NCBI RefSeq assembly: GCF_037975245.1
Contig: NC_092576.1
Coordinates: 8,030,001 to 8,094,000 of the forward strand
DNA from: Apostichopus japonicus
Taxonomy: Eukaryota > Echinodermata > Holothuroidea > Aspidochirotida > Stichopodidae
Direction of reading: 5' to 3'
DNA length: 64,000 nucleotides
The number at the start of each line of letters is the position of its first letter. Within the stretch, counting starts at the first letter, position 1. Shown here in pieces: positions 30,398-62,200 of the stretch. Under the pieces are notes generated by a model that did not search any database, was not told where the DNA came from, and saw only the letters and a list, made by a program, of their open reading frames with translations. The translations under genes were made by a program, and so were the position numbers.

Positions 30398-33300
30398 ATG
30401 ATGCAGGTCTTAAAACATCTATGGATAATCGTCACTATATTCATTCTACACGGTAGGACAAAGAGTCAAGTTCTTTGTTTTTTTTAATAGTTATCGTTTA
30501 TTTAGCCTCGATCTAATAGAGTTTAATAGGTTTTATCTACATTTTAAATCTTGGTGACACATGTATTATCTGCCCTAAATCTTGGTGGTTGAGGTCACCA
30601 TGATTTTTGTTTCGTTATCATTTCAGTTAAGGCAAGTATGTATTATTGCAACATTGTTTTTACTTTTTATTGGTTGAAGGTAAAAATATGTTTTTTACGT
30701 CAACTTTTGCTTCAAATCGAATTTCGTAAGCCTCAATGCAATCTGTTTCTCAGAAAATAGATGAGCCGTTTAAATTTCATTAATTAACTCTTTAGTTTGG
30801 ACCGGTACAAGATATTACCGGCTATATACTAATAAAGAAGTTTGTGAATTTATATACACGCATCCCTTTCAGTTGCTCTTATTACATGTTGATGTGTAGG
30901 TTTACTAAAGAAGGAATAAATTGTCGTTATTTTCATAGAGAGAATACTAATTGCTATTTTTATCATAAATTATTTATTTTGATGAGAAATACACTACTCT
31001 TTTTTATTTTAATTCTAAACCCAACCGTTTTAGGTATTCAAGGTGTTTTGACAGACTGTACAAGTCACCAAAATGCTCAAATCGGCAGTAGTTGGAAAAT
31101 TGACTGCAGGCTACAAGGAGATTGGAGCGAAGTTAAATATTACCGCGATAACCCGGTCGAAGGAAATTTACTGATCATGTTTAATCAAGGTAACCATTCA
31201 ACATGTGTCTGTCAAGGTCTCGAATATGAGTCAGTTATTCCGATGAGAATCTACCATTAATACACACTTCTATAATAAACACTTATATATATAGTACTTG
31301 TACATTCTTAGATACATTTTTACTTTCACTTTGTATGATTGCATTATGATGATGGTGATTTTTTTTATATCGTATAATACGAGTTCATTAAATCATATCA
31401 CTAAATGTATTAAACTTGTTTATGTTCAAGGAATAATTGCAACCCCTTTGTATGAAGTTACCATGAATTAACACTTATATAGTACTTATACATTCTTAGA
31501 TACATTTTTACTTTCACTTTGTATGATTGCATTATGATGCTGGTGATTTTTTTTATATCGCATAATACGAGTTCATTAAATAATATAACTAAATGTATTA
31601 AACTTGTATATGTTCAAGGAATAATTGCAACCCCCTTGTATGAAGTAACTGAAAAGGTAATGCAGAGTAAAGGAAAAGAGGAAGAGAAAGGAAAGTGATG
31701 AGTTGAGCTGAGTTGACACATATGAAAACAAATGAGGCAATTTAAAGATTGAAATATATAATACTAGTTCATGTACGCCAACGCCGCGGTATCAATTGCC
31801 CAACTAGTGACTGTACGAAACTATTTACTTAATATTCTTGCATTGGTTATACATAAACTCTCCTAAATGTTCACACCGTGGCTGTTGTCCTACTAATGTT
31901 ACTGTTAGTGCTGCAGTGTGCCATGGCAGTGTGCCACTTATTCATTAGGGGTAGTGGGTTGTATTGAAACTAAGGGATTTTTTGTTTTAAATTTAAAAAA
32001 ATCTTTTGATAGGAAAGGCTTGATATGATAGTCTTAGTATGAACTGTTCTGGCTGGAGAATCATTCAATTTTTTTTCCTTGCTGTTTTAATATAAGATAT
32101 CATACGTCATCTCGTTTCTACTCCGCTTTCAAGATAATGAGACGCGTAGATTTGGGTTTGGACAAGATATCGATACCATGGATATTGATGAAGATGGCGC
32201 CATAGTTATCAACAATGTTACAATAGATCACATAACTGTGTATACGTTGATATACACCGACAGAGATGGGCATGAATATCAACATGAATTTATAATTATA
32301 GGTAATGTTAATACCATTTTTTTAAAGAGAACATTCTATAGTAACATGTTACTTAAAAAACAATATGTTTAGCTTGTAACCTTATTTCACGGTTAGGTAC
32401 AGCAGCAAAGCAATCATAAATGACGTTTGGCGAATCACAAAGAATGAAATATAATCCAACAAATTAATACTAAGAAAATGTTAATACGAATTGGCATATT
32501 CTGATTTGCACGTAAAAACAACTTTCTGAACTCAGTGTTTAAAAGTTGTATGATTCCAGAAAAATATACTTTTGAAAATAATTAAAGGAGACATAAACCC
32601 ACAGAATTATTTAGGTTATTCTAGGGCAGAAATATATGCAGATTCTAAAAATCAACACCATTTTCCACGAAATACAACCATATTCCAGATATGATCCAAA
32701 CTTTGAAGGCTTATGGGAGCCGCCATATTTGATCAAAAATTTTTCAAACCACCGCTTTTCAAGCCGGAAGTGACGCTTTCGATTCACTTTCGATTTTTTT
32801 GTTGCCAACTTATAGCAGAAAAATAATCTTTGTAACCATTGATTTTATTTTCTCATTATAAATGCGTATTTACTTTTTTTGTAAATTATAATATTTGAAT
32901 TTGTGCTTTTTCAATCGATATAATTTGTTTAATTGCTTGAAAAGAATAAAATACGATCGAAAAGAAATACTCTTACTCTCGATAAAGATCGTCATTAGTT
33001 CCGCGAAAAAACACGATAAACAACTTGAAGAGCACAGGCACTCGTAACGTTATGTAGGTGTACTCCGTGTTTATATACCATACACCTACATAACGTTACG
33101 AGTGCTTGTGTGGAAGAGTACCTCGAATTCACTGTTTTATTGGTCATATTTCGTAAAACCAAACATATTTGGCTTTTTACTGATCGTGTTTCTTTCACTC
33201 CGTAAATATATTCAGTTTCACTTTAAAGCATTCTTTGTACGGAATCGAACAAAAACTCAGCACTTGCCACAAGCAACTTTGTTTACGACTTAGGCTAGGC

Positions 33301-36300
33301 GTTTGTCAGCCTAACATTATTTCTTTCAGTGCGTAATTCGCAGGCCCAGGCACATCAAAGTTAAGTACGTAGGCCTAAAGACATATCGTATTTTTTGGTT
33401 GAAAATGGAACATTTTGGACTTGAGGGCTATCAGTTTGAACCCGAGTATACTGAAGCTGAAATGGTAAATTTAGCTGCTGAAAAAAATGCCACTGACACT
33501 GACTCAGTTGGAAGTGAAACTGAGACTGATACTAGTGAAGAAGATTATTGTTTGTGTGGAGAATGTGAAGCTATGCCTTCTGAAAAGGAGAATGTTTGTT
33601 GCCACTCGGTATTTCGGCAACATGAATTGGATTTTGGAGCCTGCATCACTGAAGACCCGAACTTTGCTGCAGTATGCTTGCAGAAATTAGTTTTGGAGCT
33701 TGCTTTCCAGCAATTTCTTCAATACATAAAGAAACCGCCACTTGCAGCCCAGGCTCAAATGAACAACAGGTTAGTTTTTTTTAATTATTTTTTTATAACA
33801 ATTAAAATTAGGCAACCCTTCACTACTTTGATGTTGCTGTCTATCTTGATTTTCATTCGAATATGCACAGTAAATCAATGCAGCATTTACACCATTGAAC
33901 TCTATTAAATACTGCTTTACAATTTTAAGACCAGACACTTGCCAACAGGAGTTTTGTTTAAGTTTTCCTCATTCAAGACACATTTAGCCCATGGATCTCC
34001 ACTTTGAAGATCTTCGGAATGTGGTGCATAGAATGCATCCAAGTTTGAAGCTGCAACAGCTCAGTTGAGCAATTTTCCAACAGCCAACCTCAATGCAACA
34101 TAAAAGAAATGGAATCCTGAAATGATCTTATTCAATATGTAAAATGTGATTGTTTTCCTTTTATTTCAACAGGCAGAAAAGACTCATGGCTTATAGACAG
34201 ATCAGTTTGTGGGCAAGCAGAGGTCAACCCTTAGGAAAAGGCAACAGGAGAGTGTTACCTTCCTGCTGTGTCATGCGGATCAGGGCAGAATTTACTGATG
34301 ACACCTTCTCAGGGTACCTTGAAGTACAAGAGGCATTAACTATGGATTAAAAGGTGATTTTTCAATTTTCTATTTAATGGTATATAGCCCTGCTTATGTT
34401 TGTGAGTTTATTTTTGTCAAATAACTGTATAAACAATTATTTGGTTAAAGTTTAATATCAGTTCTACTGTACAGCACATTTAGAGAGCTGCATTTAGGTA
34501 AATCATGACGCAGAAGAACTGCATCCTTTTCAATGCCATTTAGCTGGCAATAACAGGTGGGATAAAAAATGCCAAAGTATTCCTTTTAATTTAAATTTAT
34601 TTAGCAGTGAAGCATCGTTGCAAAACATGAAATTCATTTGTTTTTATGTTATAATTTTTGTGTTATCAGAAGAATTTATGAGGTCTTTTTTTTTCTTGCA
34701 GATCAGAAGATATCGGTTTTGTTCATATGAGAGGGAAGGATGCGTAACTCTTGAATGATTATAACTCAAGATTTGGGATCTTTCATATTTATTTAATTTT
34801 GTTTTTACTATACCTGTAGTAAAAATTGTATATATCCATTCCTCATGAAAAATACTGAGAGGCTTCTATTAAACAATATTGTAAAGGATTTCAGGTTTTG
34901 CAAAGAATAAAGGCCCAAAATAGAAAATATACTGTATGTGTTTTACTCTAATTATATTTTCAGGTCTGATGAATATAAGCAGATAAATGTTTTGCTGTAA
35001 CTGCATAATATTTTTTTGGCAGTAAGTAGCTTAAATTATTGACAAAAATGTGTTTGGTAGAGACAAAAAGGAGCATATTTCCATTTGCTTCCACCAGGGA
35101 GGAACACCAGCTTAACCCCCATGAATGGCCTGAAACTGAAGTAAAAGTTAGATACATGTCCCACAAACTTCAGAGTTTGTCAAGCTACTATTTCCACCCT
35201 ATTCCATTCTTTATATTGTGATATTAAGTCCTTTCTGGGATCCAACATCTATCCACTCATTCAAAGTAGTGAAGGGCTTTGACTCCTACCCCACACATTC
35301 ATTTACCACATATCAGTATTCATCCCCTTTCATATGATTGGTAGGTTTTCAATAGCATAGTAGATCTGTCTAGCCTTGGCATGAAAAAGATCTTATTGCA
35401 ACAGGAAGATATCAACCACTAGTCTTGCATTGCTTAACTGTAGCATCCTCAATTATGTAAAATACTATTTGAACATACAATATAAGTTGTAAAATATTTC
35501 ACCGACTTAATTTTACAGAGAAGCATATCAAGTGGATAAAGCAAGCAAATACCTGTGGTGTATTGTCTCAAGTAAAGAAATGCACATACCATAATGTTTG
35601 TCATTGTCAAGAAAAATGTATTTCCACAAAATATCACAAGCACAAGGTCTACAGGTATGTAAAGAAAATATAAACATCAAACACAATATATGATGAAATG
35701 GTAACAACTATTCAAATAAATGGTGAAAACAGTTTGCAAAATCGCATGAGTTGAAAAAAAGCAACATCTCTGTCACAAATGAAACTATATGATAATAATA
35801 TGAGACTATCAAACAATGGATAAATGATTGAACAAATTTATCTTGCACAAACCAAATCATGAAAGATGTGAAAATTTATCTAATCTTCAGAATAGTTTGT
35901 TTGGTTTGAATGGGTATTTTGCATCCCAAAGGTCATATAAAGATACAACAGCCATTTTATAAACCAGTTGTAAAAACTAGTTGAACACTGGAGATTGAAC
36001 CTGGGAAGTTGTTGTAATAGGCGAAACACTAACCACTAAACCAGGGAGGTTTACGATAGTTTAGAATAATTTGTACACATGTTTAAATAAAACGTTAACA
36101 ATATACACAGAATTATGAAAATATGACTGCAGCAACAACTGTGACAGTCATTGATGAATACATAAAAAAGAGAATGTTTCACTTTGTTGTACATAAATCT
36201 TAGCATTACAAGCAAGGTGACCTTATAAACAATAACATTGTTAATAGTTGAATAACATTTCAACTCATCATTAGTGAATACATAAAAAAGAGAATGTTTC

Positions 36301-39300
36301 ATTTTGTTGTACATAACTCTTAGCATTATAAGCAAGGTGACCTTAGAAACAATAATAGGGTTCATAGTTGAATAACATTTCAACTGATCGTTGATGAAAG
36401 ACTAATCATTACAATGGATAGTATACCAAGCCCAACATAATCCAATCAAACAAAAAGTTAATGAGATCATAAAAAAGCAAATACATGGAAACAATATGTA
36501 ATATTGCATAGGTGAAAGGCATAGAGTTGAAAAGTTTTCTGGGTATTTATCTTTAAAAATGAAAATGCACCTTTATCAAGGTAAGTACTATGAACAAAAT
36601 GATAGTAGGCCTATATATTTTTTATTATGAATTACTTTATTTTTCAAGGTTCTCTTTCTAACTTTGGCAGTAAATTTTTTGCTCAAATATGCAAAAATAT
36701 TTATTAACAAGCTGCTGATAAAATTAATTGGCAAGTTTCTAGTCCTCGGCTTTCAAACATTATTGCACTTTCTTGTAAAGCAAAAAATGAATTGGAGTTA
36801 AGATAGAAAATTCCTGCTGATGCCAATGAAAAGAAGCATACCGGATAAAAACGTGATTAGTTTACCACCAAATTTTTCTGTTAAAAAAGATACACAGTAA
36901 TCAACATTAAAAGAAATAAGCTTAATTAAGAAGAAAATGCTGAACTTAAACAATACAAAATTTAAAACCTAGAAGCATGGCTCTTCAACATTTCTTCTTT
37001 TGAGGGGGCTTCAGTTGGTGCAATTTTTTTTGCAGGCGCTGCTGGCACAGGGTCAATTGTACTTGTCTGTCTTCGATATACAACCCCTTTCATTAAATCT
37101 TTGACATAATCATAGTTCTTGGCTTCATACCTCGCCTTCAGCACCCAACTCTTCGTCATTTTTGTAAATACCTTCTTGTATTGTACTTCCCCTCGTGCGG
37201 ATGAGCCTTTGTGAGGCTTCTTCACAACGGCCTTTGCCCGTCCAACATTCTGGTTGTGGTCAATTGCAGCTAACTTCAAGCGAGCTGTCATTGATGAATA
37301 ACCGAACTCTAATCTCTTTGGCGCATACTTCAAAAGGACATTGTGGAAAACTTCAAGGGCACCAGTATGCATGAATTCTGCAAGAAATCTTATGTCCTTC
37401 AAAAGTCGCTTAGCCAGGGCTACCTTCTTCAGTGCCTCGTGGGCAGATGATCCTGCCTTGAGCCATATTTTCTTTCTCTGCTGCAGATCTGTCAGTGGAT
37501 CATGGCCACATTTCTGAAATAGTGGTAAGTTAGGATCATCTGACCACTCATGCTGTCCTAGAACATGGTAGACCATAGATGACCACATCTGCACCAACAG
37601 CTCCTGGTCCTTGTTGCAAGCTCTGGCACAAAACCACAGATGGTTGATAATGGATTTGATCCAAGGTTCCAATTCTTCATTTCCCTTTTTCTTTGCCGCT
37701 TTGCGCAATTTGCTTTTGATATTTTTCGCTAGGTGAAATATATCAAAATTATGTTTTACAGAACTGTACTTAGTACGCATTAATTTTCTTATTCCTGTGT
37801 GACGGTCAGTAGCAAATCTTTTTACATTAAGTTTATAGTCATTAAGGACTCTATCCATACACCTCTGGAAGCCCACTGCTTCCATTCTTTGAGATGCCCC
37901 AGTCTCTGAAACTTGCACCAGTTCCATGTCTACCACCTTCTCTGAACTGACATCCATCAAAGAGTAGCTACAATACTTTGCTGAAAACCCTGGTGAATCA
38001 CAACGCCCATCATCAATAAGATCAGTTGGGGATCCTTTCAATTGGTCAACCACTGCCTTTTGATGTGCATCCCAATAACTGTTAATCTCTGGGATGAGGT
38101 ACATCTTCTGAAGGTCATAAAATGTAGTGGCAGAAAAGAACTGCAAATTGAAAAATTTCATGAACTGAGCAACTCTTTGATATGTCAGTCCAGAGAACAT
38201 GGTAGCCGCAGAACAGAGGAGGTTACCAATGGGCATCCTACCATCTAAGGGCTGGGAGGTCCACTTCAACACAACATGGCCAGAAATACACTTCAATGTT
38301 GCAAGCAAACCTGACCCAACAACTTGCTTTTCTATATCTGTAACACTACTTGAACATTGGGAACATTGAATATGATAACAGAGCTGTTCTATGTTCGCCT
38401 CAAATACTGTATACTTTTGTTCCTCTACTGCCTTTGTTGCAAAGGAGTCAGTGATTGAAAAGATGGGTAGGTCTGCGTCCGGTTCATAGTGTGGATCTCG
38501 CTTTTCATCATCCTGGCATCCTTTATCGCTGCCATCACTGTTGTCCTCAGCTTTTTCAATTTAAGGGGGGACTTGTGTTTCAAGGACCTCTGTGGTGGCA
38601 ATGTCTCTTGCTGCGGTGGGGTCTCCTGGGGTGGAGCCATTCCCTCAGAGGACACATCTGCTGATAAGAAGCTGTATGGGTGGTCCAATTCCACTGTACA
38701 AGCATGGTGTGTTTTGACTTGTGGTACACCAGCTTGGCATCCCATCTCTGTAACGTCAGTATATGTCTGAGTTGATGCGCAAACACTGGACAAGGCATCC
38801 TGTACAAGAATAAATAAAAGAGCATAAACACTCGAGTTAGACTAACATAAGAGAAACATCGATTTAAATCTGCCAAAAAGAAAAAAAAGAAATTTTCATA
38901 CATTATAAATGATAAAGGTAGGCATTAGAATAAACCTTGAAAAAAATGACAAAAGAGTAAAAGGGTTTGAAAAATTCTCATGCATGTTTTCCAAAACCTG
39001 CTTGTAAAGAACAAATTCTCTGGTCCATAACTGGCTGATATCTAATTTCAAGGATTGAACTGTACCAAAAATATTGGTACAACATTTAAGGCAGTGACAT
39101 ATCTACTAATTTATTTTGACACCCAGTTTTACTATGTGAGTGCAAAACTGTATTGCGACTTAATGTAATGTAAAAACATAGGAAAGAAATGAGAAAATTT
39201 TAATATGCCTTTTCAACCAATTTGCTTTTTGAAATGTGCAGTGCTCTACCTTTACAGTACTTGTTTATAGGGGCAACCTGCCTGCCCCCATTTGTTTTCC

Positions 39301-42300
39301 CCCATCCCTCAGAATTTTTTTTATGTATATACTTAAAAAAAACTACCTTGCAACAACCTTAACAAAAAAAAGGAAAAAAAGAAGTTTTCCTGTTTGGTAC
39401 ATGAATGGCCCTTAGGCTATCATAATAAAAGTGTACGTTTGGAGTAACTCTACCCTTCTCAAAAAATTCCTAACTTCTCAAAAACATTTTCTTGAAAAAA
39501 ATTAAATTAAATTTCACAGTGTGCAAAAAAGCATACTAAATTTTGAAGTTGGTTAAAAAAAAAATTGCCTACATACCCAAATTTTTCAACCGACTGGGCT
39601 ACTCCAAGCTAACAATATTTTAAGGATGACCTTATTATTTATGGTTTCTTTCTGAAATTTAAAACGAGCCCAGAGATTAACTAGCGAGCCTAATGGGTAG
39701 ATCCACGGGAGACTTTCCCACTTACAGCCCATAAAAAAATAATCTTAAATTGTGAATTCATAACCGCTATTAAATGCGGTGACATTTTTTTTTAGCTCTT
39801 TAGAAAATTCTGGAAATTATCACCCTTAGATGATTTTCTGGATCCACTATTGGAGGGCCCCTTTTTGAAATCGAGTTGAGGGCTGTTGTGTATATTTTAA
39901 TTTTTCAGTGACATTCCCTACTTTATTTCAAACTTCAGAATCTTATTAGGGATGCAAACAATAAACCCATAGTGTAAATCTGAGAACAAGTAAAAGCCAA
40001 ACTTACAGGTATGAATTGCTGAGTGATCCGTGTTACAGCAGTTGTGTGTGTGACAGCAGGGGAAAGAACCTCAGCAGGTGGATCCAATAGACTGGAAACT
40101 CCCTGTTGATAAGAGAATTAAAACAACATTTAGTTTCAATACAAAATCACTACTTAATGAAACCTCAATTCCAGGAACAAGTATGAAATTTACATTAACT
40201 GCAGTCAAAGTAATAAATTTTTAATATATACAGCTCTTGAATTTTCATGTGTGTCAGCTTGAAGTGCTATGTAGAAATGTTTCAAGAGGGTAATAAAATC
40301 TGAGAAGTTTTTGAATTTTGAAATATGATAACAATATTTTTGTTTGAATTGAAGCACTTTTAAACATCGAATGATTACAGCATAATCAATTTTTATATTT
40401 GATTAATCAGCTAATACTTAGTTTTTTGGAAGAATTAGCTCTGGTGACCATTTGTTTTCAATTTTGCATACATGTGCCCCCCCCCCCCCCAAAAAAAAAT
40501 CAAAGTCTGATTATGGTACTGCAGTAACTTTGACATAAAACAATAAAAGAAATTATAAACAGAAAAAATTAAAAATTTTAATACCTTAGGTGAACAGTGT
40601 AATGGCTGACACAGTTTCTTTGAAGGTGGCTGATCCTTTGCTGTCAAAAGTTGATTGATTTCCTACAAAAAAAAGTATGAAACATAAACATTAGAAAAAT
40701 TTCCTGGAAAAAAAACATGAAACATATGGTAAAGTAGGAGCAGTTTATGGGTTAAAAATTCCCATCAAGCCATACTAGGATCTCCAACTGAGATCGTCAT
40801 GAATGAGGGGAGGGGAATAAACAGTAACAATTTTCCAGTATTTCTAAAAGAAGTGGTTAATGTGGTCTAAAAAGGGCTATTAATTTTGTTCTATTATCTT
40901 TTTTTTCTAGGGGGGAGTGGGAGAAGTATGAGGAGGAGGAAGACGACATAAAAAATGGTCCACAAACTTCTATAAGAGAAAAAATTTCAATACTTGGCTT
41001 GAAGGCAGTTAATCGAGGAGCGACTGAGGGAACGCAACAAAGGTGGCTGTGTATATAAAAATTTTGTGCACATTACATCCACGGCAGCTGCACAGTGGAT
41101 ATAAAAATTTGGTGCACATTATATCCACGGCACCGATATTTTGTTGTTGCCAAAAGCACTGGTCGATCATCTCCGTGGATATATCATTATATCCACGGCT
41201 GTTGTAACTAGTGTACCACCTCCAGGGAGGGGGGGGGGCAGAGGGGGAACGTCACCCCCATAAAGCTTGTGTTTTGTTTTTATTCTAAGCCAAATTTTGT
41301 GAAATCATAACGTGCCGTGAACCCAGGGCCATCGTATATAAGCGATGGACTGGGGGATGTGCCCCCCCCCCCCGTGATCAGTTTGATGTAGTGACCCTTT
41401 TTTTTTTCTTTAGAAATATGGCTTCCAAAAATATGGAAAGTGCACCTCCCTTTCTGGATACCCTTGAACCACCTACATGGACATTGCTCAGTTTTAACCT
41501 TGGGAACAAACACAGTCAACTATTCCAACACCTCCCTAACAGAGCTACCCATATTTATGGAGAATATTATCCTCAGATACAGTAGCATGATCCCACCCCT
41601 GCTCAATTATAATACACCCTTCACAGGAAATGATCCCAAAAAGTAAACTCTTTTCACCTGTGGTTCATTACACAAATAAAAAATTTGACAAACTTGTATT
41701 AACAATGCTAACAGTTGTACATCAGACAACATAAGATAAGCCCTTGTTAAGTTTTCAATGATTTTGTTTGTTTTGTTTTCACACCTTTCAATTGAAAGAA
41801 TCAATGTAGGCCTATTGTACTACTAGTGCCATGTGAAGCTGTGCACTGTACTATACTACTAACAGAATCAATGTAGGCCTATTGTACTAGTGCCATGAGA
41901 AGCTATGCACTGTACTAACTTACTGTTATCTTAGCGTTAATATTAGAATTATATCGGGGTATTTTTCTAATGAATACGTGACGATATGCAAAACAAATGA
42001 TTTTTCTACATTAATTCATATATAAATATCCATCTTTTAACCCCACATCATTCACAAATCGGCAGCCTAATGTTATACTCCGATGTACTGCGCGATATAA
42101 ACAAACGACTTTCGTTAGGCCTCACCTGTTTCGCTGATCTTTTCAGAAGGCGCAGTGCTCGACAGTGGTCTTCTTTCGGGCGACGATGGACGAAAATGGT
42201 TGGAAAGGAGCCGGGTTTTAAGTTCTTTCTCGGTTTAGTTCCCATTAGTCTTGCTTTAACGTCCTCTTCGAAGCATTTCTCTTCGAAGTGGTCCTCGCAA

Positions 42301-45300
42301 ACAACTTTGTATTTGTGGAACGTAAAGTTGTCCACGGTATGGCCAGTCCCGATCTGATGTAGCCATTTCTGGGAAAGTTCTCTCTTCTCTGGGTCCGTTT
42401 TTCCGTCAGGAATAACAAAAAATCGCTTCCCCTTCGATTTTCCAGCACCATGACGATTTGTACAACCATAAGCTTGGCATTCCGGCATAATTTAAACTTT
42501 TTTTCGAACTTGAGAAGCTTTTTCCAAACTTTCTTTGACCATTGTCAACACACAATCTGCATATGAATGTACTGTGTGAGTGATTGGTTTCTGAGAAACG
42601 AAGTGAATCTACGACGTCACTAAATTGAGGGCGGGTGTAAAAAATGGCGCGCCCCATACATTTGATTATAGTAGCGAAAAAATGTTTTCAAAAATCGAAA
42701 AAAAATATGATATTACAGTTTATAAATAAACTAAGGCGTGTATAGTGTTTATAATATATCTTTCCATCTTAAGGATTAAGGAAATGTTGTGGGTTTGTGT
42801 CTCCTTTAAGAATTATATGTTATTTAACTGACTCGCTCCAATCACGTTGCTGCTATTTCATTGTTTACAATTTTCTCACAGATTGTCCTGTTACTGTTTA
42901 CGCCCACCATGGATCCGACGCACTCATAAATTGTTACTTCCCTCAGTCCCAAAGGGTTTATTGGTACGATTCAACGTCACGCAATGCTCGACCAATCATA
43001 AGTCTTGAAGAAGGCCGGATGGCGGGGCCAGGAGTATCTGCTGGGAAATACGATATTACCAATACCGGTGGTCTTTTGATAATGAATACTACTTTCAGCG
43101 ACGAAAAAACATACCGTGCTATACTTATTGTATCCAATATACATACATTAACAACAGATCAGAAAGTCATTATTTATGGTAAGTCGGTATTGTATATGAA
43201 TTGATAAGAATTTCCCTTGCTTTAAACTGCGATTATTTTAACATGCCTTTGAAATCTCCGTCCTGAATCAATATCTACTAATCTCAATAACATAATGTTG
43301 GTATATAGCAGGATAGTCTACAACGACAAACTGAAGCGAATACAGTTTCAATATGAATTTGAACAAGATTCTGCCATAATCGAAACGTTAGGTACTCTTA
43401 CTTGTTTTCTTAATCTGGTTTTCTACAGCAAACGTCGACACAGCGGTATTTTCAGTAGATGTTTGTGAGGGAAGCAACTTCTGTTTGGTGCATCTGCAAG
43501 ATCCGGCACTTCTTACATGTCGGGAAACAAATACAGGACCTCATACGTTACTGAACTGGACAAGAAATACATCGAACGGTACACGATTAGTAAATACGTC
43601 AACGTACTTTGATGGCAACAAGTACGAGGCAATCGTAACAACGAATGTAAATCTTAACTCGACAGACCGACTGTTTGTTTACATATGTAACTCTATGATA
43701 GATATTCCAGCTAGGCCGTTAAGACAAATAGTTGTAATGGTCGAAGATGAGAGCAAAGACTACATCACTACTCTGTTGAAACCGACATATTATAGGGAAT
43801 ATGATGACGTCAAATTAGTGTGCACCAATGAGAATCCTTTGTTCATATTGTGGAAAAGAAACCACGAAACTATTGGATACTATCACGAAGGAAAATCGGA
43901 TGTATTGAAACCTGGCTACGAGCTTGATAAGGATGGATCGTTGCTCATTAACAAATTCTCATATGCACATGGAGGTGAATATGTTTGTATCTACAACAAT
44001 GGTAGAGACGAGAACGTAAAGCAACATAATATCAAGACCGTTGGTGAGTACTTTTATTCTTTTAAAGTCACTCAATGTTTAGTATCATATGTACGTCTTG
44101 CGTTCTACTGACTTTAAAATAGGAGCTTTTGTTTCATGTATCTTTCTTATAATGTGAAAGAAACATTAACCGCGTGATTTTCATTGTTTTTTGAACGTCA
44201 TTCTGGTCTTAGCTTTGTTTCAGGGGGACGAATATTGACTGGCCCAGTCACAGTATTAAAAATAAATCGATATCATTCTTGATGTGGTACACCTCGAAAC
44301 TTAAAGTTAAATTGACCTGCAATATGATATTAAGGCCCCCAAGTCACTGAAAAAAAACACTATTCATTAAAAATAAACTGGCTTCAAAGTATCTAATTAG
44401 TACAGTGTCATATTATTGGTAAAGCTAGGCACATGATGACTTCGATTCTCCAGATATAGAAGAACATTGTCTTCTAAGGAGCAAACCTTTATCTTATATC
44501 ATGCTAATCAATCGGTAGGTAGAAATTTTGGAATTAGTATTGTAATCTTCGTCGTACACGTAGTAATATTCCGAAAAAGAAAAAAACCGTCATTGAAAGA
44601 GGAAAGCAAGTTAAGAAGTATATCGTTCACAACTTTCTCCTCTCATTTTCTTTATTCATGAGTTACGCCAACCAATCCTTCACCTTCTATCATTGGGTGT
44701 TCTGAACCATCGGATTGCACATTTAATGTAACGAGCAGTGGATATCTGACGTGTTACATAGAGGCCGTTCTTCCAATCGTGCATCCGAAATGGATTCACG
44801 ATGAATATGTTTCTTCCAAAATTACTTTCAGTCAACCACAGCTAATAGTGAGAAATTTTGGGTATTTGTTTAACATATATTTGACTACTTACTACGAAAT
44901 AACGACTAACCAGGGTTATGAAAGTGAGACAGACGAAGACTGGAAGGCTAACGATATCACAGCGTCCTGCTCTGTGAACTACGAGATTCTTGGGCAACAC
45001 AAGACAGTCGTTACGTTGCATCTACAGAAACGTTCCCCAGGTAACTTAATGCTTAAAATGTATGTGTATGATGATAAAGGAGCTTCAATTGCAAAAAAGA
45101 CCACCTCATTGGAGCTTACTGAATCATTTTTTTTTCTCGTAGTTATCTTCAAGTTACAATACATGGAAGAAAGAGGACTTCTTTTCAGTTGTTGGTTTAA
45201 CATTGAGGCGAAGGTGGGGAGGGGAATATTTAAAAGACATTAAAGGAGAAGCAAGTTCCCCAACCCATCCAGATTGATGTGATAAATATGCTTGTGATAA

Positions 45301-46008
45301 ATAGCTCACACTACATTATTAAATCTTCCGTTTATAATTATCGCAATGTAATCATATCGTGCCTCATAAACTTACACAAAGATTATCCAAACCTCAGTAA
45401 GGATCCCTCATGGCCAATTCTGATGTGTCCTAAAAAACGTACAGTTAATGGAAAGCAAAATGGTTATACCAATACCGTGACGTTGGGTCTTTCTTTGCGT
45501 TCGGAATGACTCAAGGAAGTCGGAACTCACAAATCATTCTTAAGATTTAAGTTTATGCGAATTAGTATTATTCTCAGCGTTAATTTAAGTTTCAGCTACT
45601 TAGCGTGTTAATCGTGTTCTTCATTCACAATATCTATCTTTTCGATTCGTTTCTTGCAGCTTTGACAGAGGATAGGATAATAGAGAGGTTTGAAAGTAAG
45701 ATTAATCATGATAATAATTTTGTTTTATTTCATATATTTACACCAAAAATAAAATTTTATCTCATATTTATTAGTACAATTTTACCTCACTACGATACTT
45801 GTTACAGTGTGACTCAAGTGTTTTATGCAGTGTTATGTTACATTGGTTAGTATATCTACAAGCTGATTTTCTTATAGTTTACCTTCATATCTTGCAAATA
45901 TAATTGGCAGACAATATTTATGTCAATAGTGTTATCAAACATTCTCGTTTTTATTCCAGCAAATATGAACTGGCAGTGCGTCATCCCAGTCAGTGTAATG
46001 TCTGTCAT

Positions 46009-52445: not shown

Positions 52446-54116
52446 GTTTCATGTGAGTGATAAATAGCCCCCCCCCCCCCCCAGGAAAAAAATATTAAGC
52501 CTGTTAGTAAAAAGCACTCTATTTTTGGGTAATTCACTATGCCGTCGAATATAATTTGTTGAAAAAAAAGTTTTCCCCTTTGTTACATTAACATAGCTTT
52601 TGTAGTCAGTAGTCTATGTAGCTATCAAGCAGATAACTATACTCAGTTGCGTACTGTGTAGTGAGCGGTGGTACAGATGTATCGAAAAATAAATCCGCAT
52701 AATTCCACATGGTAATGTTGATGAGTAGTACGGGGGGGGGGGTACAAGGCAGCAGTTGGAAATTTCTGGCTCCAAAATCCATCCAGTTGGAATTTCAGCC
52801 ACTACACCCCCCCCCCCCCCCAATCATCAGGCCTTAGCTACGTCCCTGTGTAGAGATGGGATGAATAGCTACTGGCATGATTTTTAAAGCTCTATAACAT
52901 ACATAAATCACATTTTGAGTACACTTGCCCTTTAATGTGAATTTTTATGCTTAGTACTAAACCATTCCATTCTTTTTCATTGTGTCGTATCTACATTAAA
53001 CGATTATACACCTTAATTCTTGTTCATCAATGTTCTTTATTCTAGAGTACATCCATCCATTTATATTTTTGTTTTTTCCAGATTTACTGTAGTAATATTT
53101 TTTATTACCTATGTCATTATCTTGTCATAAAACATAGAAAATGTTTATTCTCACCTTGCCAGAAAAAGTAAAAGTTCAGCTTTCGGTCACGATTTTGTCT
53201 GGTTCTTCATTTTTACCATGGTAAAAGATAGGCTGGTATTCGTGTTGTTGTCGTAAGGCAAAGAGTAAACACTTTCAAGGCAACTGGTACGGTTTGATGG
53301 TCTATGTACTGTAAACCTTCCTCTGATTGGCCAATGATAGCCAATCAAAACAAATAAGAGAAACTACATGGAGCGCCTATTTTCACAGAAAGAAACAACA
53401 AGTTTTGGAAAATTTGTATGGGTGGTAACCAAGCGTATATAAGATACGTGTCTAATTCTAAATGTAGAGGAAAGCGAGAGGGGAAGTTTTGGGCAGGGAG
53501 CTTTTGGTGTGGTCCAGAAAACCTGACCAATGATCGTATTACATTTCACATGCAATGTATTACTGGACTGCATAGTGCAGAAACCATGTTTTTTAATTAT
53601 TTTCAGGAAGCCGAGGGGCAAAAAATATGAGAGAATAAAAAAAATGTGTAATGGGAAAATACTTTTGTAGCGCCATAAATACAACAAATTCCAAACATAT
53701 ATATTTGCGTGGTCGCTGGGATGTTTTATGTGAGGACGTTTTCCGGGTAAAATTGAAAATAATTTGGAAGCTCCCTTCACAAATTCCGCACAATGCCTTT
53801 CTCTATGGCTCCACCCATTTGAAAAAAAAAATGATTTTGACTAGCTTTAGCTCTTCAATAAACAAGCATAAATGCTAACACTTACTTATTCGTTCGGAGC
53901 TCTAGGTTATTTTAGAAACTATGAGTCTTTTTTCTTTTAAATTTTTAACAAATTTTGACAGGTAATGCTAGATGTGACAGTCTGAGTAAAAAATGTTCTG
54001 GCCGGAGAATCATTTAACTTTTATGATTTTTTATTGCTTATTTAATGTGAGATATAATACATCATCTCATTTCTGTTCCACTTGGGTTTTTTTCTCTGTT
54101 CCACTTGGGTTTGGGC

Positions 54117-57100
54117 ACGACATCCGTACCCTGGATATTGATGAAGATGGTGCCATGGTTATCAACAATGTTACAATAGATCACATATCTTTGTATACTT
54201 TGATATACACCGACATTGATGGACATGATTATCAACATGAATTTATAATTATAGGTAATATTAGCACCATTTAACTAAAGAGAACATTTCATCGTTACAT
54301 GTTAATCTAAGAATGAGAAATATATATTAATCTTGAAACCGAACTTCACGGTTAGCTGCAGCAACAAAGCAATCATAAATTTCCTTTCGAGAATCACAAA
54401 GAATGTAATGCAGTCAAAATATACCAAGAAAATGTAAATACGAATTGGCATATACTGATTTACACGAAAAACCAACTTCCTTGAACTCAGTGATGAACAG
54501 TTGTATGATAACAGAAGAATATTCTTTTAAGAATAACAGAGCATAACATGTGGTTTCACTGACTCACTCCAATCATGTTGCTGCTTCCTCATTGTTAACT
54601 CTTTTCTCACAGATTGTCCTGTTACTGTTTACGCCCATCGTGGATCCGACGCACTCATAAATTGTTACTTCCCTCAGTCTCAAAGGGTTTATTGGTACGA
54701 CTCAACGTTACGCAATGCTCGACCAATCATAAGTCTTGAAGGAGGCCGGAAGGCGGGGTCAGGAGTCTCTGCTGGGAAATACGATATTACCAATCACGGC
54801 GGTCTTTTAATAATGAATACCACTTTCAGCGACGAAAACACATACCGTGCTATAGTTATTGTATCCACATACATTTACAACAGATCACAAATTCGTTATT
54901 GATGGTAAGTCAGTATTGCATATGAATTGATAAGAATAACCCTGGCTGTGAACTGCAATTATTTTTACCTACCTTTGAAATCGCATTCCTGAGACAATAC
55001 CTACCAGCCTCAATAACAGAATGTACCATGTACCTAGTTTTAAAAGAAAGAAAAAAGTCACTGATCTTCTAAATACGTCTGTGTAGGAATGTATTAGATA
55101 TAGTTTCTGATTTTTTCTGGTTTTCTAAGGTTTTTATTTATTTTACAGCAAACGTCGACACAGCGGTCTATTCAGTAGATGTGAGGGAAGCAACTTCTGT
55201 TTGGTGCAGCTGCAAGATCCGACATTTCCGATATGTCGGGAAACAAATACAGGACCTCATACGTTACTGAGCTGGACAAGGAATACATCGAACGGTACAC
55301 GATTAGTAAATACGCCAAAGTATTTTGATAGAAACATGTACGAGGCATTCGTGTCAACGAATCTAAATCTTAACTCGACAGATCGACCATGTGTTTACAT
55401 CTGTAACTCTATGATAGATATTCCAGCTAAGCCGTTAAGACAAATAGTTGTAATGGTCGAAGATGAGAGCAAAGACTCCATCACTACTCTGTTGAAACCG
55501 ACATATTATAGGGAATTTGATGACGTCAAATTAGTCTGCACCAATGAGAATCCTTTGTTCATATTGTGGAAAAGAAACCACGAAACTATTGGATACTATC
55601 ACGAAGGAAAATCGGATGTATTGAAACCTGGCTACGAGCTTGATAAGAATGGATCGTTGCTCATTAACAAATTCTCATATGCACAAGAAGGTGAATATGT
55701 CTGTATTTACAACAACGGTCAAGTCGAGGACCTTTCGCAACATAATATCAAAGACCGTTGGTGAGTACTTTTATTCTTTCAAAGTCACTCAATGTTTAGT
55801 ATCATGTATACATCTTGAGTTCTACTGACTTACCCTTTGTTCCATGATAAACCGCGTGATTCTTATTGTTTTTCGAGCGTCATTCTGGTCTTAGCTTCGT
55901 TTCTGGGGACGAATATTGACTGGCCCATTACCAGTATTAAAAATAAATCGATGTCATTGTTGATTTGGTACACCGTCAGAACTAAACGTTAAATTGATCT
56001 GCAATATATGATATTGAGGCCTCTAAGTCACAAAAAAAAAAGACTTTTCATTAAAAGAAAACTGGCTTCATAGTATCTAATTAGTACAGTGTCAAAGTAT
56101 TGGTAAAGCTAGGTACATGATGACTTCGATTCTCCAGATATAGAAGAACATTGTCTGCTAAGGAACAAACCTTTATCTTATATCATGCTAATCAATCGAT
56201 AGGTAGAAATTTTGGAATTAGTATTGTATTCTTCGTCGTACACGTAGTAAAATTTCGAAAAAGTAAAAGCTATCTTTGAAAGAGGAAAACAACTTAAGCA
56301 GTATATCGTTCATAATTTTCTCCTCTCATTTTCTTTACTCATCAGTTACGCCAACCAATCCTTCACCTTCTATAGTTGGGTGTTCTGAAACATCGGATTG
56401 CACATTTAATGTAACAAGCAGTGGATATCTGACGTGTTACATAGAGGCCGTTCTTCCAATCGTGCACCCGAAATGGATTCACGATGAACATATGTTTTCC
56501 AGAATTACTTTCAGCCAAACACAGCTAATAGTGAGAAATTTGGGGTCTGTGTTTAACATATATTTGACTACTTACTACGAAATAACGACTGACCAGGGTT
56601 ATGAAAGTGAGACAGACGAAGACTGGCAGGCTAACGATGTAACAGCGTCCTGCTCTGTGAACTACGAGGTTCTTGGGCAACACAAGACAGACGTTACGTT
56701 GCATCTACAGAAACGTACTTCAGGTAACTTAAAACAACGTACAAGCGTAGGAAGGTATGTTGATGAGGAGATTAACTATTAGTGTATCATGATAAAGGAG
56801 CTTCAATTGAAAACAAACGCCCAATTGGAGCTTGTTGAAACTAATTTTTCTTGTAGTGATCTTCAAGTAACAATACTTAGAAGAAACGGGACTTCCTTTT
56901 CAGCAGTTGGATTAAAGCTCGGCGAAGGTTAGGGAGGGGGAGGGGAGGGTGTTGTTTAAATGACAGTGAAGGGGAAACAAATTCCCCAACCCATCCAGAC
57001 TTATATGATAAATATGCTTATGATGAATAACTCACACCACATTAATAAATCATCCGTTTAAAATTATCGCTCTGTAAACATATCGAGTTTCGTAAACTTA

Positions 57101-57702
57101 CACAAAGATTATCCAAACCTCAGTGAGAACCCCTCGTGGCCAATTCCGATCCGTCTTAAGGAACGGTCAATTAGATATGTAAAGCAAAATGATTTTTACC
57201 AATACCGTGACATTAGGCTTTTCTTTGCATTTGGAATACCTCAAGGGAGTCGAACTCACAAATCATTCGTAGGATGTAAGTTTATGCTGATTACCATTAT
57301 TCTCAGCTTAGTTTTAATTTTCAGATACTAAGCTTGTAAGTCGTTTCGTCATACACAATATTTATCTTTTCGACTTGTTTCTTGCAGCTGTGACAGAGGA
57401 TAGGATAAGAGAGAGGTTTCGAGGTAAGATTAAACATGATGATAATTTTGCTATATTTCATATATGCACATTAAAAATGAAATTGATGTCATATTTGTTA
57501 GTACAAGTCTACCATTACTACGACACTTGTTACAGTGTGCCTCAAGTGTTTCCTGGTGATGACATATTGGTTAGTCTATCTAGAAACTGATTTTTTTCTT
57601 TGTTCATTTCTGGTAAATATAATTAGCAGACAACATTCATGCTAAGAAGCCAAGAGTAATATTAACATCCACAGTGAAGATAACCAAGCCTTTGATGTTT
57701 GA
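54117..57702 (+). pseudogene. decayed paralog of the Ig receptor (copy B)
   Basis: Recognisable exons: domain 1b to 54254, domain 2 at 54613-54904, domains 3-4 at 55149-55760, domain 5 at 56346-56723, the 36 bp linker exon at 57388-57423 and a tail at ~57655-57702. Defects relative to copy A are several. There is no signal-peptide exon and no first half of domain 1. The acceptor of domain 1b was replaced by a short duplication (GTTCCACTTGGGTTT). Domain 2 has a net 5 bp loss giving a TGA just before the donor. There is a 4 bp loss near 55178 and a one-base gain near 55751. The TM exon is deleted. Exon sequence is otherwise very close to copy A, so the loss is recent. Domains 3-4 still form one open frame (55201-55764). 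Confidence 0.8.
54527..54530. other. probable empty site of the Kolobok insertion
   Basis: In copy B's intron, ..GAATATTCTTTTAAGAATAAC.. aligns with copy A's left flank (..AATATACTTTTGAAAATAATTAA) and right flank (TTAAGAATTATATG..). A single TTAA is present where A has TTAA-element-TTAA. Confidence 0.75.
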
Positions 57703-58431: not shown

Positions 58432-58746
58432 TTTAAAGGTACTTGGATCCTTTGTTATACCAACGATGGGCCTGGTTACTGGAGATTGTTTGTTGATAGT
58501 GAATTCGTCCGTTTTGGTAAAAGATATCCAATTCAATGTTCTTGCAATTATGCACACATTCATTTTATCTAAAACGTCATTGTTGTGGACGTTGTTCGCT
58601 ACTGGCACAGTGCTTCTTTCATGGTCCCGGCCAGAAAGTTCAGAAACCAAATTAGTTGGAATTACTCATATATCAACAATGATTTTATTGTTGTCATCGC
58701 TTTATGTTCGAGAAAGAGGTTATTAATGGAAAATATGCTACCTAAA
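58432..58746 (+). pseudogene. possible broken exon of unknown protein
   Basis: After the acceptor CCTTATTGCAG one frame reads KGTWILCYTNDGPGYWRLFV, FGKRYPIQCSCNYAH, a TAA, then VIVVDVVRYWHSASF.. to 58746. It looks like a compact Cys/Trp-containing domain with one stop inside, but I do not recognise it and no partner exon was found. Confidence 0.25.
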
Positions 58747-58756
58747 CATTAAAGCC

Positions 58757-59260
58757 ATCCATCCATCCATCCATCCATCCATCCATCCATCCATCCATCC
58801 ATCCATCCATCCATCCATCCATCCATCCATCCATCCATCCATCCATCCATCCATCCATCCATCCATCCATCCATCCATCCATCCATCCATCCATCCATCC
58901 ATCCATCCATCCATCCATCCATCCATCCATCCATCCATCCATCCATCCATCCATCCATCCATCCATCCATCCGTCCGTCCGTCCGTCCGTCCGTCCGTCC
59001 GTCCGTCCGTCCGTCCGTCCGTCCGTCCGTCCGTCCGTCCGTCCGTCCGTCCGTCCGTCCGTCCGTCCGTCCGTCCGTCCGTCCGTCCGTCCGTCCGTCC
59101 GTCCGTCCGTCCGTCCGTCCGTCCGTCCGTCCGTCCGTCCGTCCGTCCGTCCGTCCGTCCGTCCGTCCGTCCGTCCGTCCGTCCGTCCGTCCGTCCGTCC
59201 GTCCGTCCGTCCGTCCGTCCGTCCGTCCGTCCGTCCGTCCGTCCGTCCGTCCGTCCATCC
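58757..59260. repeat. compound (ATCC)54-(GTCC)71 microsatellite
   Basis: The array is 216 bp of pure ATCC (58757-58972), then 284 bp of pure GTCC (58973-59256), then one ATCC. No interruption is seen. All the long open frames read across it on the minus strand (DGRT/DGWM repeats) are artefacts. It abuts the LINE fragment that follows. Confidence 0.98.
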
Positions 59261-62200
59261 AAAATTATTTGTGAAAGCACGGTCAAGGGGAAAAACATAT
59301 TTGGGCGGGAGATTAAAGTACTGCAGTATGCCGACGACACCACTTTATTTTTAGACGGTACCCGCAACAGCACTGTTAAAGTGGCCATGACACGAAAATT
59401 TCAACGTCCTGTCTTTTTGGAATCTATCTAAGCATGCTCTCTAGAACATATATCAACCATCCTGCCAGTTAAAAATTTGATTTTCCCTTCGAAAATTTAG
59501 ATTTAATTTACCCTCTTCGGGCTTGAAAAGTTCGTTCGGCTGAAATTTCCTAATCTCATGACGTCATGTGACGTCATGTTTTGAACACGATTTTGCTCTC
59601 GCTGAACCCTCCGAACACATATCATACTTGCAGTACGACAAGTGTACATAAATACACATAACAATCGATAACAAGTCGGCGCGAAATCAGATCGAAATTT
59701 CCCGTGGAATGTCAGATTTAGAAGCAAATGAGGCAACCGAAGTTCACAATGATAGTGGTTCTTCACAACGCAGTGAAATTGGGCTATAATTAGAGTTCCC
59801 TTTCTAATATTTGAAGCAGAGAGTGAAGGCGATGATCATGCCAATATTTAAACGAACGTTGTGGGTGGACCTGAGGTGTTAGAACCGTATCAGTTCGACC
59901 CTGTTAAACAAGCCGAAATTGAAGCTCCACAACATATCGAAGAACAAACCCGTTCGGAACTATTGCAAGGAACATACAACGTGGTAAGAATTTATGAACG
60001 AATCATTTAAAAACAAAATCCAGTCCATTTTTTGCATGTGTTGTTGAAATTTGCGGAACACCCTAAACCGTATTGTGCGTTGTGTTACGGTGAACTACAA
60101 CCCATATATAGTGTGTTGGTTATGTATTCATATACAAGTACAAGTACAAGGATCGCCACTTGCCCATTGAAGGTTTTCTGTTCTCCAATCTGGTCTTCGG
60201 AGTTTTTAATGTGGAATACTTGACAGAAGAACGACTCGTTTATGTCGACCCGTTAAAACCCATTTGTTTTATTTCATAAAAAAAGGAGGGATCGTAGTAT
60301 ATGCTTCCGTGAAGTGTTCGCTTCATACGGAGCTGCATAGTGGCTAGGCCCAGTGAAATCGGCGCTGGTGTTGTGCACTAACTTGATCATAATCGCCGTT
60401 TTTTGTTCGTCCTTCAGCCATGGATGAAGGCTAATTGCATGGGTTATGATATTTATGCAGCCCCAACAACACAACGGACCGACATTTCTCTCGGATAGTT
60501 TACAACAGTTGTAAAACAAACCTGAAATTTCTAACGATATAGCGTAATACAGTGGTTGTTCTCTCAGTGTAAATGTGCGTGTATGTGGAACGGTATGATC
60601 GTCGGGCATCCGGTACATGCCTCGGCTTGGCACTTGTGTTCCTAACATGACGTCATCATTGTCTTGTTGTGAAATCGAATTCTCAGATGTCTACTTTCGG
60701 ATGCGAATATTAAAACGTTAATTTATAATTAGTCCTTGAGGTTTTCAAGGTGATGAGGATAGTTTTGAACATAGATTTTCTCATAGATTCAGAGGAAGCT
60801 ACTCTCGATTAGTTGGAATTTTCGTGTCATGGCCTCTTCAATGTGCTGAATACCTTAGAAAAGTTTCGACTAGCATTTGGTCTCAAAATTATTCTCAGCA
60901 AATCCCAGTTTCCTTTCCTGGGTCCTTTCATTTCAAATAACCCAGATCATGTCAGTGAATTCAATTTTTCTATTACTAACTCTCCTATTAGGTATCTCGG
61001 TACAAACTTCACTCACAATGGTAACGATCTCTTTCGCTTAAACTATGAGCAGAAGCTATCTAGCTAGGCTGAAACACCAGCTCAGAGTTTGGAATGGGCG
61101 TGATCTCACACCTATTGGCAGAAACACAATAGTGAAGTATTTTGCAATCAGCCAACTCGTCTTCCTTTTTCAGGTTCTACCTAGACCCCCAAAAGACTTT
61201 ATTAATAAAATCCAAAGCAGTATTTTTGACTTCATTTGGAACGGGAATCCTGACAAATTAAGAGACTTACTATGTATAACCCAATTGGAAAGGGAGGTTT
61301 AAAAATGATACATGTTCATAGCTTTGTGGAAGCTCTTAACACCTCATGGGTCAAGCGTACTTGTAATTATGCCAACACTGGGTATTGGAAGCTCGTTTTT
61401 CATTCGCCGTTCGGTAAAGATTTGCTTTTCAACTGTAATTTTCATGTCGAGGATATTTCTTGTACCAAAAAATATTTTCATTAAGCAAATTTGCATGGCT
61501 TACAGTAAAGTTACCTTTAAGAATCCTTCGGATCACTTTGGTGATCAAATCCTTTGGAAAATCATTTTATTAGAATTGATAATACCATTGTTTATGATAA
61601 TAAACTTCACGTTGCCGGTTTACTGTTTGTTAAGGATATATTTTTGCCAGATGGGAAGCCAATGTCCTCCAACGCTTTTCTAACCAAATTTAAGATATTA
61701 AGGTATCCTTTTACTTGTTTTCGTGGGATCATTTCTGCAATTCCTAGAAGTTGGAAAGATTCTGTCAGTTTAGAAAACGGTGTCTAGGAACAGCAAGGTC
61801 ACCTTGTCAATCTTATGTCTAGCATTTCTAAATTGTCACAAGTAGTCTATCTTCGCCTTATAGACTGTATTTCGCTCCCGTCAAAGGCCTGCTCTAAATG
61901 GAGCGGTACCTTTGACTTATTGTACGCTTTCTGAAGCAAAAATACAATATTTCCAATTCAGATTCTGACACCGCATCTTAGGAACCAATCGGCTTTTAAA
62001 TTTAATGAAAATAGCGGCTTCTCCACTCTGTACAATTTGCAATATTGAAGAGGAAACTATTGAACATTCATTCTGGTCCTGTCATGTGACGTCTAATTTA
62101 CTATCAGATTGACAACAGAAATTTGTTGGTAGACAGTTTATCTTCTCATAAAAAAGACCCATTGATTTTTTTTATCCTTCACATCAAATACTTTGTCTTC

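Follow-up and report, generated by a model that had tools for sequence, protein, structure and literature searches.

The element and its two genes

The window analyzed here is a 64,000-nucleotide stretch of the genome of the sea cucumber Apostichopus japonicus. At positions 32586-42805 it contains a Kolobok transposon of 10,220 bp, with two genes arranged tail-to-tail: KolX on the plus strand, which encodes a protein with the ballast domain found at the cytoplasmic end of the P2X7 receptor, and a transposase on the minus strand (Table 1). The ends of the element are inverted repeats whose first 18 bases agree at 17 positions (left terminus from 32586, AGGAGACATAAACCCACA; right terminus, reversed from 42805, AGGAGACACAAACCCACA). 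An earlier note on this DNA described a near-complete Kolobok element with terminal inverted repeats, TTAA duplications, a THAP/DDE transposase, and a separate ballast gene. Such a bounded element was confirmed by its ends, its protein domains, and three further full-length copies in the genome. The term "near-complete" holds for the extent of the element, both ends being intact, but the transposase frame of the window copy is broken, and this copy is therefore probably non-autonomous. Both genes are present as described, with the correction that a single minus-strand gene has the THAP and DDE parts as exons. All four full-length copies have AGG...CCT termini, in keeping with the 5'-RR...YY-3' rule of Kolobok elements, and all four have the 4-bp TTAA target-site duplication typical of them. 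Upstream of KolX, the element also contains an inverted repeat of 30 nt (97%) around an 18-nt loop (33033-33110), and a direct 120-bp duplication (91%; 36148-36387) with cross-matches in the three other full-length copies lies between KolX and the transposase.

Table 1. Features of the element and its uninserted counterpart (window positions)
Feature	Position	Strand	Remarks
Left TTAA target-site duplication	32582..32585	none	also TTAA in the 3 other full-length copies
Left terminal inverted repeat, starts AGG	32586..32608	+	3 other full-length copies begin identically
KolX exon 1: FEPEYTE motif, C49, C51, C54, C65, C66, C80	33405..33769	+	PF20478, E = 8.6e-8; GT donor in 4/4 copies
KolX exon 2: rest of ballast domain, C153, R125, R159, stop	34173..34350	+	PF20478, E = 1.3e-5; AG acceptor in 4/4 copies
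Transposase exon 4: linker and DDE core	36962..38799	-	Mutator-like PF20700, E = 8.6e-8; 1-nt lesion near 38559
Transposase exon 3	40007..40102	-	AG/GT sites in 4/4 full-length copies; manual edges
Transposase exon 2	40585..40662	-	AG/GT sites in 4/4 full-length copies; manual edges
Transposase exon 1: THAP DNA-binding domain	42126..42488	-	PF05485, E = 2.3e-14; GT donor in 4/4 full-length copies
Right terminal inverted repeat, ends CCT	42783..42805	-	common to full-length copies
Right TTAA target-site duplication	42806..42809	none	also in other full-length copies
Paralogous site without the element (both flanks tandemly duplicated)	53884..57641	+	78% and 84% identity

The spliced KolX product (180 amino acids) matches the P2RX7_C domain (PF20478) with E = 1.1e-18 and is 100% identical to an NCBI protein (P0003) annotated as "P2X purinoceptor 7-like [Apostichopus japonicus]". 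Its frame is unbroken in three of the four full-length copies. When compared with distinct PDB sequences, KolX matched only four at E ≤ 1, all of them P2X7 (best E = 5.1e-8), and the seven zinc-site cysteines (C49 to C153, Table 1) align with those of P2X7. In a low-confidence structural model (predicted local distance difference test, pLDDT, 56.8), P2X7 accounted for all 13 Foldseek rows with a probability of 1.00 (best E = 3.5e-3, none ≤0.001), and the six other rows had probabilities of ≤0.02. A KolX with the ballast fold and seven cysteines, as expected of the Kol0 lineage of Kolobok, is present. Among the contacts for guanosine diphosphate (GDP) in rat P2X7 (PMC7016195), R546 and R578 align with KolX R125 and R159, two others are replaced (L126 and V155), and K583, one of the five, has no counterpart in the alignment.

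The transposase exon edges were set in a manual model, and the splice dinucleotides are conserved across the four full-length copies. In the window copy, the exon 1 frame runs on into exon 2 and the exon frames join up to a lesion near 38559, where this copy has one nucleotide fewer than the other three; an assembly error is possible. The THAP domain expected of a Kolobok transposase is encoded by exon 1. A 532-amino-acid open reading frame (ORF; 36962-38560) holds D184, D252, D273xxH276, a finger of H332/H337/C351/H353, and E403. Of 7995 sequences scored, 134 were homologues at E ≤ 0.001. In an alignment of 15 rows (the window sequence and 14 chosen from the 134), D184, D252, D273, H276, and E403 are invariant, giving a DDE transposase with the C/DxxH motif, and H332, H337, C351, and H353 are in the class conserved in at least 90% of rows, placing an H2CH finger between DxxH and E. 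An AlphaFold2 model (pLDDT 83.3) places D184 on a strand (179-187), D252 just past another (246-251), and E403 on a helix (400-412). P element transposase was not among the 50 rows listed, and nothing is concluded from its absence.

Copies of the element and linkage of KolX to a transposase

The genome (671.6 Mb, 35 contigs) was searched with the left 315 bases of the element, giving 13 matching places including the window; the 12 others were examined. Three are further full-length copies (10,170, 10,231, and 10,219 bp) with identical terminal bases and TTAA on both sides, so the boundaries are not due to chance. The four full-length copies share 97.6-98.2% pairwise identity, and each has both KolX and the transposase between the same ends. 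Another three copies, C5, C22, and C19, are two-ended but internally deleted to ~1.3 kb and lack the transposase and most of KolX; the first 53 KolX codons are retained in C22 and the first 28 in C5, with the transposase absent from both. At five other places the match is limited to the left 212-450 bases, and the last, C16b, is a divergent partial copy that retains KolX residues 92-180 in two pieces; 13 kb beyond it there are transposase rows on the strand of its KolX. The check proposed in the earlier note, a search for numerous copies in which the same terminal repeats enclose both genes, gave that result in all four full-length copies (one with a broken KolX frame). The opposite pattern, copies without the ballast gene alongside a ballast gene at a unique locus, was not seen, as the ~1.3-kb copies have lost the transposase too.

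The window also contains an uninserted counterpart of the site. An immunoglobulin-domain locus is tandemly duplicated, and the transposon is present in one copy only: the left flank (31936-32581) aligns with 53884-54536 and the right flank (42809-45922) with 54540-57641, ungapped across the insertion junction. The duplicate reads CAGA at the TTAA position, and the four-base target itself is therefore not seen at the uninserted site.

A genome search with PF20478 yielded 471 candidates, of which 150 were scored; all 150 were above the cut-off, and the window's own exons were not among them. Of these listed rows, 61 form a single low-scoring class (28.9-32.5 bits, one TGA each, on many contigs) that is evidently a repeat, probably a short one derived from the 3' part of KolX. 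Linkage was counted with the remaining 89 ballast rows and 95 listed transposase rows at 65 loci, at a distance of ≤8 kb; the window's own sequence served as the transposase query, which lowers the count. Among the matches listed, 28 of the 89 ballast rows have a Kolobok transposase within this distance, and all 28 linked pairs are tail-to-tail, the transposase being downstream of KolX and opposite to it in orientation. In 2000 shuffles, the mean was 0.32 linked rows and the maximum 3. With the same queries, neither the 53.6 kb of the window outside the element nor 75.2 kb beside the short copies had a match at E ≤ 0.001. Thirty ballast loci (L029-L058) comprise five multi-copy families, F1-F5 (29 loci), and the single locus L043. 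The arrangement of the window element, with a Kolobok transposase 3' of KolX in opposite orientation, recurs in F1, F3, F4, and F5 and, with a transposase fragment, in F2. Locus tags from Holothuria leucospilota, taken as tags only and not as coordinates, suggest the same linkage: the KolX genes HOLleu_03422 and HOLleu_02955 are one to two tags from the transposases HOLleu_03421 and HOLleu_02957.

The window KolX has two exons and an N-terminal FEPEYTE motif. The FEPEYTE/SEEEL N-terminus is common to the window family, P0004, and P0005 from Holothuria, whereas the open frames of F1-F5 did not show it. As judged from sequence, one genome holds two predicted KolX subtypes, told apart by this N-terminus.

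Five P2X exon matches were found in the genome, all at C15:15099425-15190968; ~1 Mb or more separates them from the closest of the 150 listed ballast rows, and no ballast domain among those rows is joined to a P2X channel. PDB comparison was made for two ballast sequences, the window KolX and the L043 exon (C19:11523823); the latter matched P2X7 more strongly (3.1e-15 versus 5.1e-8). L043 (C19:11522323-11525769) consists of a single ballast exon standing alone, with an open frame of 213 codons (1324-1965). It was considered as a P2X7-like receptor and rejected for now, all five P2X exon matches being on C15. No listed Kolobok transposase row lies within 8 kb of L043 and no P2X match on its contig; it may represent a KolX that was domesticated as part of a host gene, or an isolated copy. 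Elsewhere in the window, 58727-59431 is a long simple repeat that is open in more than one reading frame.

Co-inheritance and selection

Trees were built from 14 ballast rows and from eight transposase rows (F2 left out), with midpoint roots. In both, the window family and Holothuria group together (100/100 in each) apart from F1-F5, F1 joins F3 (96/94 for ballast, 83/84 for transposase), and F4 joins F5 (82/78 and 98/94, respectively). The KolX and transposase trees agree; the ballast tree gives no resolved position for P2X7.

Selection was assessed in 10 KolX pairs, which are not independent, with uncorrected p values and without the window family's KolX. Five of the 10, from three of the five families (F1, F3, and F5), showed fewer amino-acid changes than expected. 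The clearest figures came from L032-L033, with 14 synonymous versus two nonsynonymous changes (p = 2.5e-8), followed by L033-L034 (p = 3.6e-7), L029-L042 (p = 3.6e-4), L032-L034 (p = 0.013), and L037-L046 (p = 0.016). The transposase pair L037-L046 gave 0.23 in the same pair count.

KolX as a probable component of Kolobok elements

The explanation we favor, and regard as probable, is that the window element is a copy of a Kol0-kind Kolobok whose KolX is an accessory transposition factor maintained by element-level selection. The Kol0 assignment is a putative one, resting on the ballast fold and seven cysteines of KolX. In the likely course of events, the window family would have moved in the recent past; the transposase, with its THAP domain and RNase-H-type DDE core, would bind the ends, excise the element, and insert it at TTAA; and KolX, separately expressed and bearing the ballast zinc site, would, for example, hold the transposase-DNA complex together. 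The best reading of the sequence data is that KolX would be needed by the element and not be captured host cargo, and its action in the transposition complex is the most likely step. The scatter of the ballast domain in the genome would then come from copying by such elements and by deleted forms of them. The proposal in the earlier note of a ballast domain traveling as a transposon accessory protein is supported by the four full-length copies and by the 28 of 89 listed ballast rows linked in one orientation. Its label "cargo" is the wrong word if, as the linkage data indicate, KolX is a regular part of this Kolobok lineage.

Several observations weigh against this explanation. Under the manual exon model, none of the four full-length copies has an unbroken transposase. 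Of the 89 listed ballast rows, 61 are more than 8 kb from any listed transposase row, 12 of the 33 with the best scores among them, and at 37 of the 65 listed transposase loci the surrounding 8 kb contains no listed ballast row. In 15-kb stretches of F2 and F3, the sole TTAA-flanked inverted pair is a weak one (13/16) in F2 that does not enclose KolX; copy-to-copy alignment ends in F1-F5 gave no common boundary, and their termini were not found. At C16b, part of KolX is retained, and no transposase match was found within the 12 kb examined. The other five KolX pairs are without significant constraint (pN/pS, nonsynonymous relative to synonymous change, of 0.55, 0.60, 1.01, 1.15, and 2.37), three of them at or above 1; this is what young dead copies would show, but it does not demonstrate a need for KolX.

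The alternative that survives best is that KolX is selected within the element but acts on the host, for instance against silencing or repair, and not in the transposition complex. The selection and linkage data fit it equally well, but a long pairing with one transposase lineage would be explained more simply by a direct partner, and we consider a host-directed role unlikely. A stronger form of the accessory role, in which the Kolobok transposition complex has KolX as an obligatory second subunit supplying a zinc and guanine-nucleotide site in trans, the Zn/GDP site of P2X7 being a relic of it, is decidedly doubtful; with R125 and R159 the only residues aligned to GDP contacts of the rat protein, the guanine-nucleotide role is kept as a speculative case. 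A passenger status for KolX, as a host ballast gene that one element picked up and that has no role in transposition, might be argued from the pairs with pN/pS near or above 1, from the lone ballast exon at L043, and from the KolX sequence retained at C16b. Against a passenger stand the one gene order of the window family and F1-F5, the single orientation of all linked pairs listed, the agreement of the KolX and transposase trees, and the constraint in half of the KolX pairs; taken together, gene order, trees, and selection leave a mere passenger quite unlikely. Finally, a piggyBac- or P-type transposon is barely credible: piggyBac also uses TTAA and a few of its families have a KolX-like C-terminal part (PMC9587614), and P element transposase also has a THAP domain (PMC7776569), but the ends are 5'-AG...CT-3' (RR/YY), the Kolobok rule (PMC9587614), Xenopus Kolobok termini likewise start with AG beside TTAA (PMC6004289), and Pfam at E ≤ 1 gave Mutator-like and THAP domains, with no piggyBac DDE domain (PF13843) among the matches of the 532-amino-acid ORF.

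The accessory-protein reading of the earlier note is correct but was published in 2022. According to the available text of Kojima and Bao (PMC9587614), KolX of the Kol0 lineage has the P2X7 cytoplasmic ballast fold, invertebrate ballast proteins are parts of Kolobok elements, P2X7 is proposed to have arisen by fusion with KolX, and nanor is likely a domesticated KolX. Capture of a ballast exon by P2X7 had been proposed earlier in PMC7016195, in the available text of which the stem "transpos" is absent. Among the KolX papers listed, only PMC9587614 concerns transposons, and it was the only match in the literature searched on the P2X7 ballast with transposons or on Kolobok with sea cucumbers. 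What this genome adds is a set of sea cucumber KolX families with a fixed gene order, together with the data on co-inheritance and selection; the families, gene order, tree agreement, and a selection test were not found in the available portion of PMC9587614.

The window element resembles Kol0 Kolobok, as described there, in TTAA, RR/YY ends, a DDE transposase with DxxH and a zinc finger, and a KolX with the ballast fold and seven cysteines; the hosts named in that portion are vertebrates, annelids, cnidarians, and sponges, whereas this host is an echinoderm. The Xenopus XKol elements, in the part of PMC6004289 available, are alike in length (6.8-13.9 kb), AG-starting termini, TTAA, and a transposase with THAP, DDE, and H2CH; unlike in the window element, KolX is unmentioned in the main text of that paper. 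The P2X7 ballast and nanor (PMC7016195, as available) have the same zinc-site cysteines as the window KolX, but the P2X7 ballast is joined to a channel, whereas the window ballast is a separate transposon protein. P element/THAP9 transposase (PMC7776569, as available) likewise has a THAP domain and then an RNase H core that is interrupted by an insertion ahead of its last catalytic residue; its insertion domain binds guanosine triphosphate (GTP), whereas the insertion in the window transposase carries a zinc finger and a putative nucleotide-binding fold lies in the separate protein.

The unexplained cytoplasmic end of P2X7 has relatives within a DNA transposon, a connection already published, but in two short passages. 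The uniform order of the linked pairs, the matching trees, and purifying selection on some KolX pairs provide an independent quantitative case for it, and at least one sea cucumber annotation as "P2X purinoceptor 7-like" (P0003) is a transposon gene. If KolX were indeed a subunit with a nucleotide site comparable to the GTP-binding insertion domain of P element transposase, the puzzling Zn/GDP site of P2X7 would be a relic of transposition machinery.

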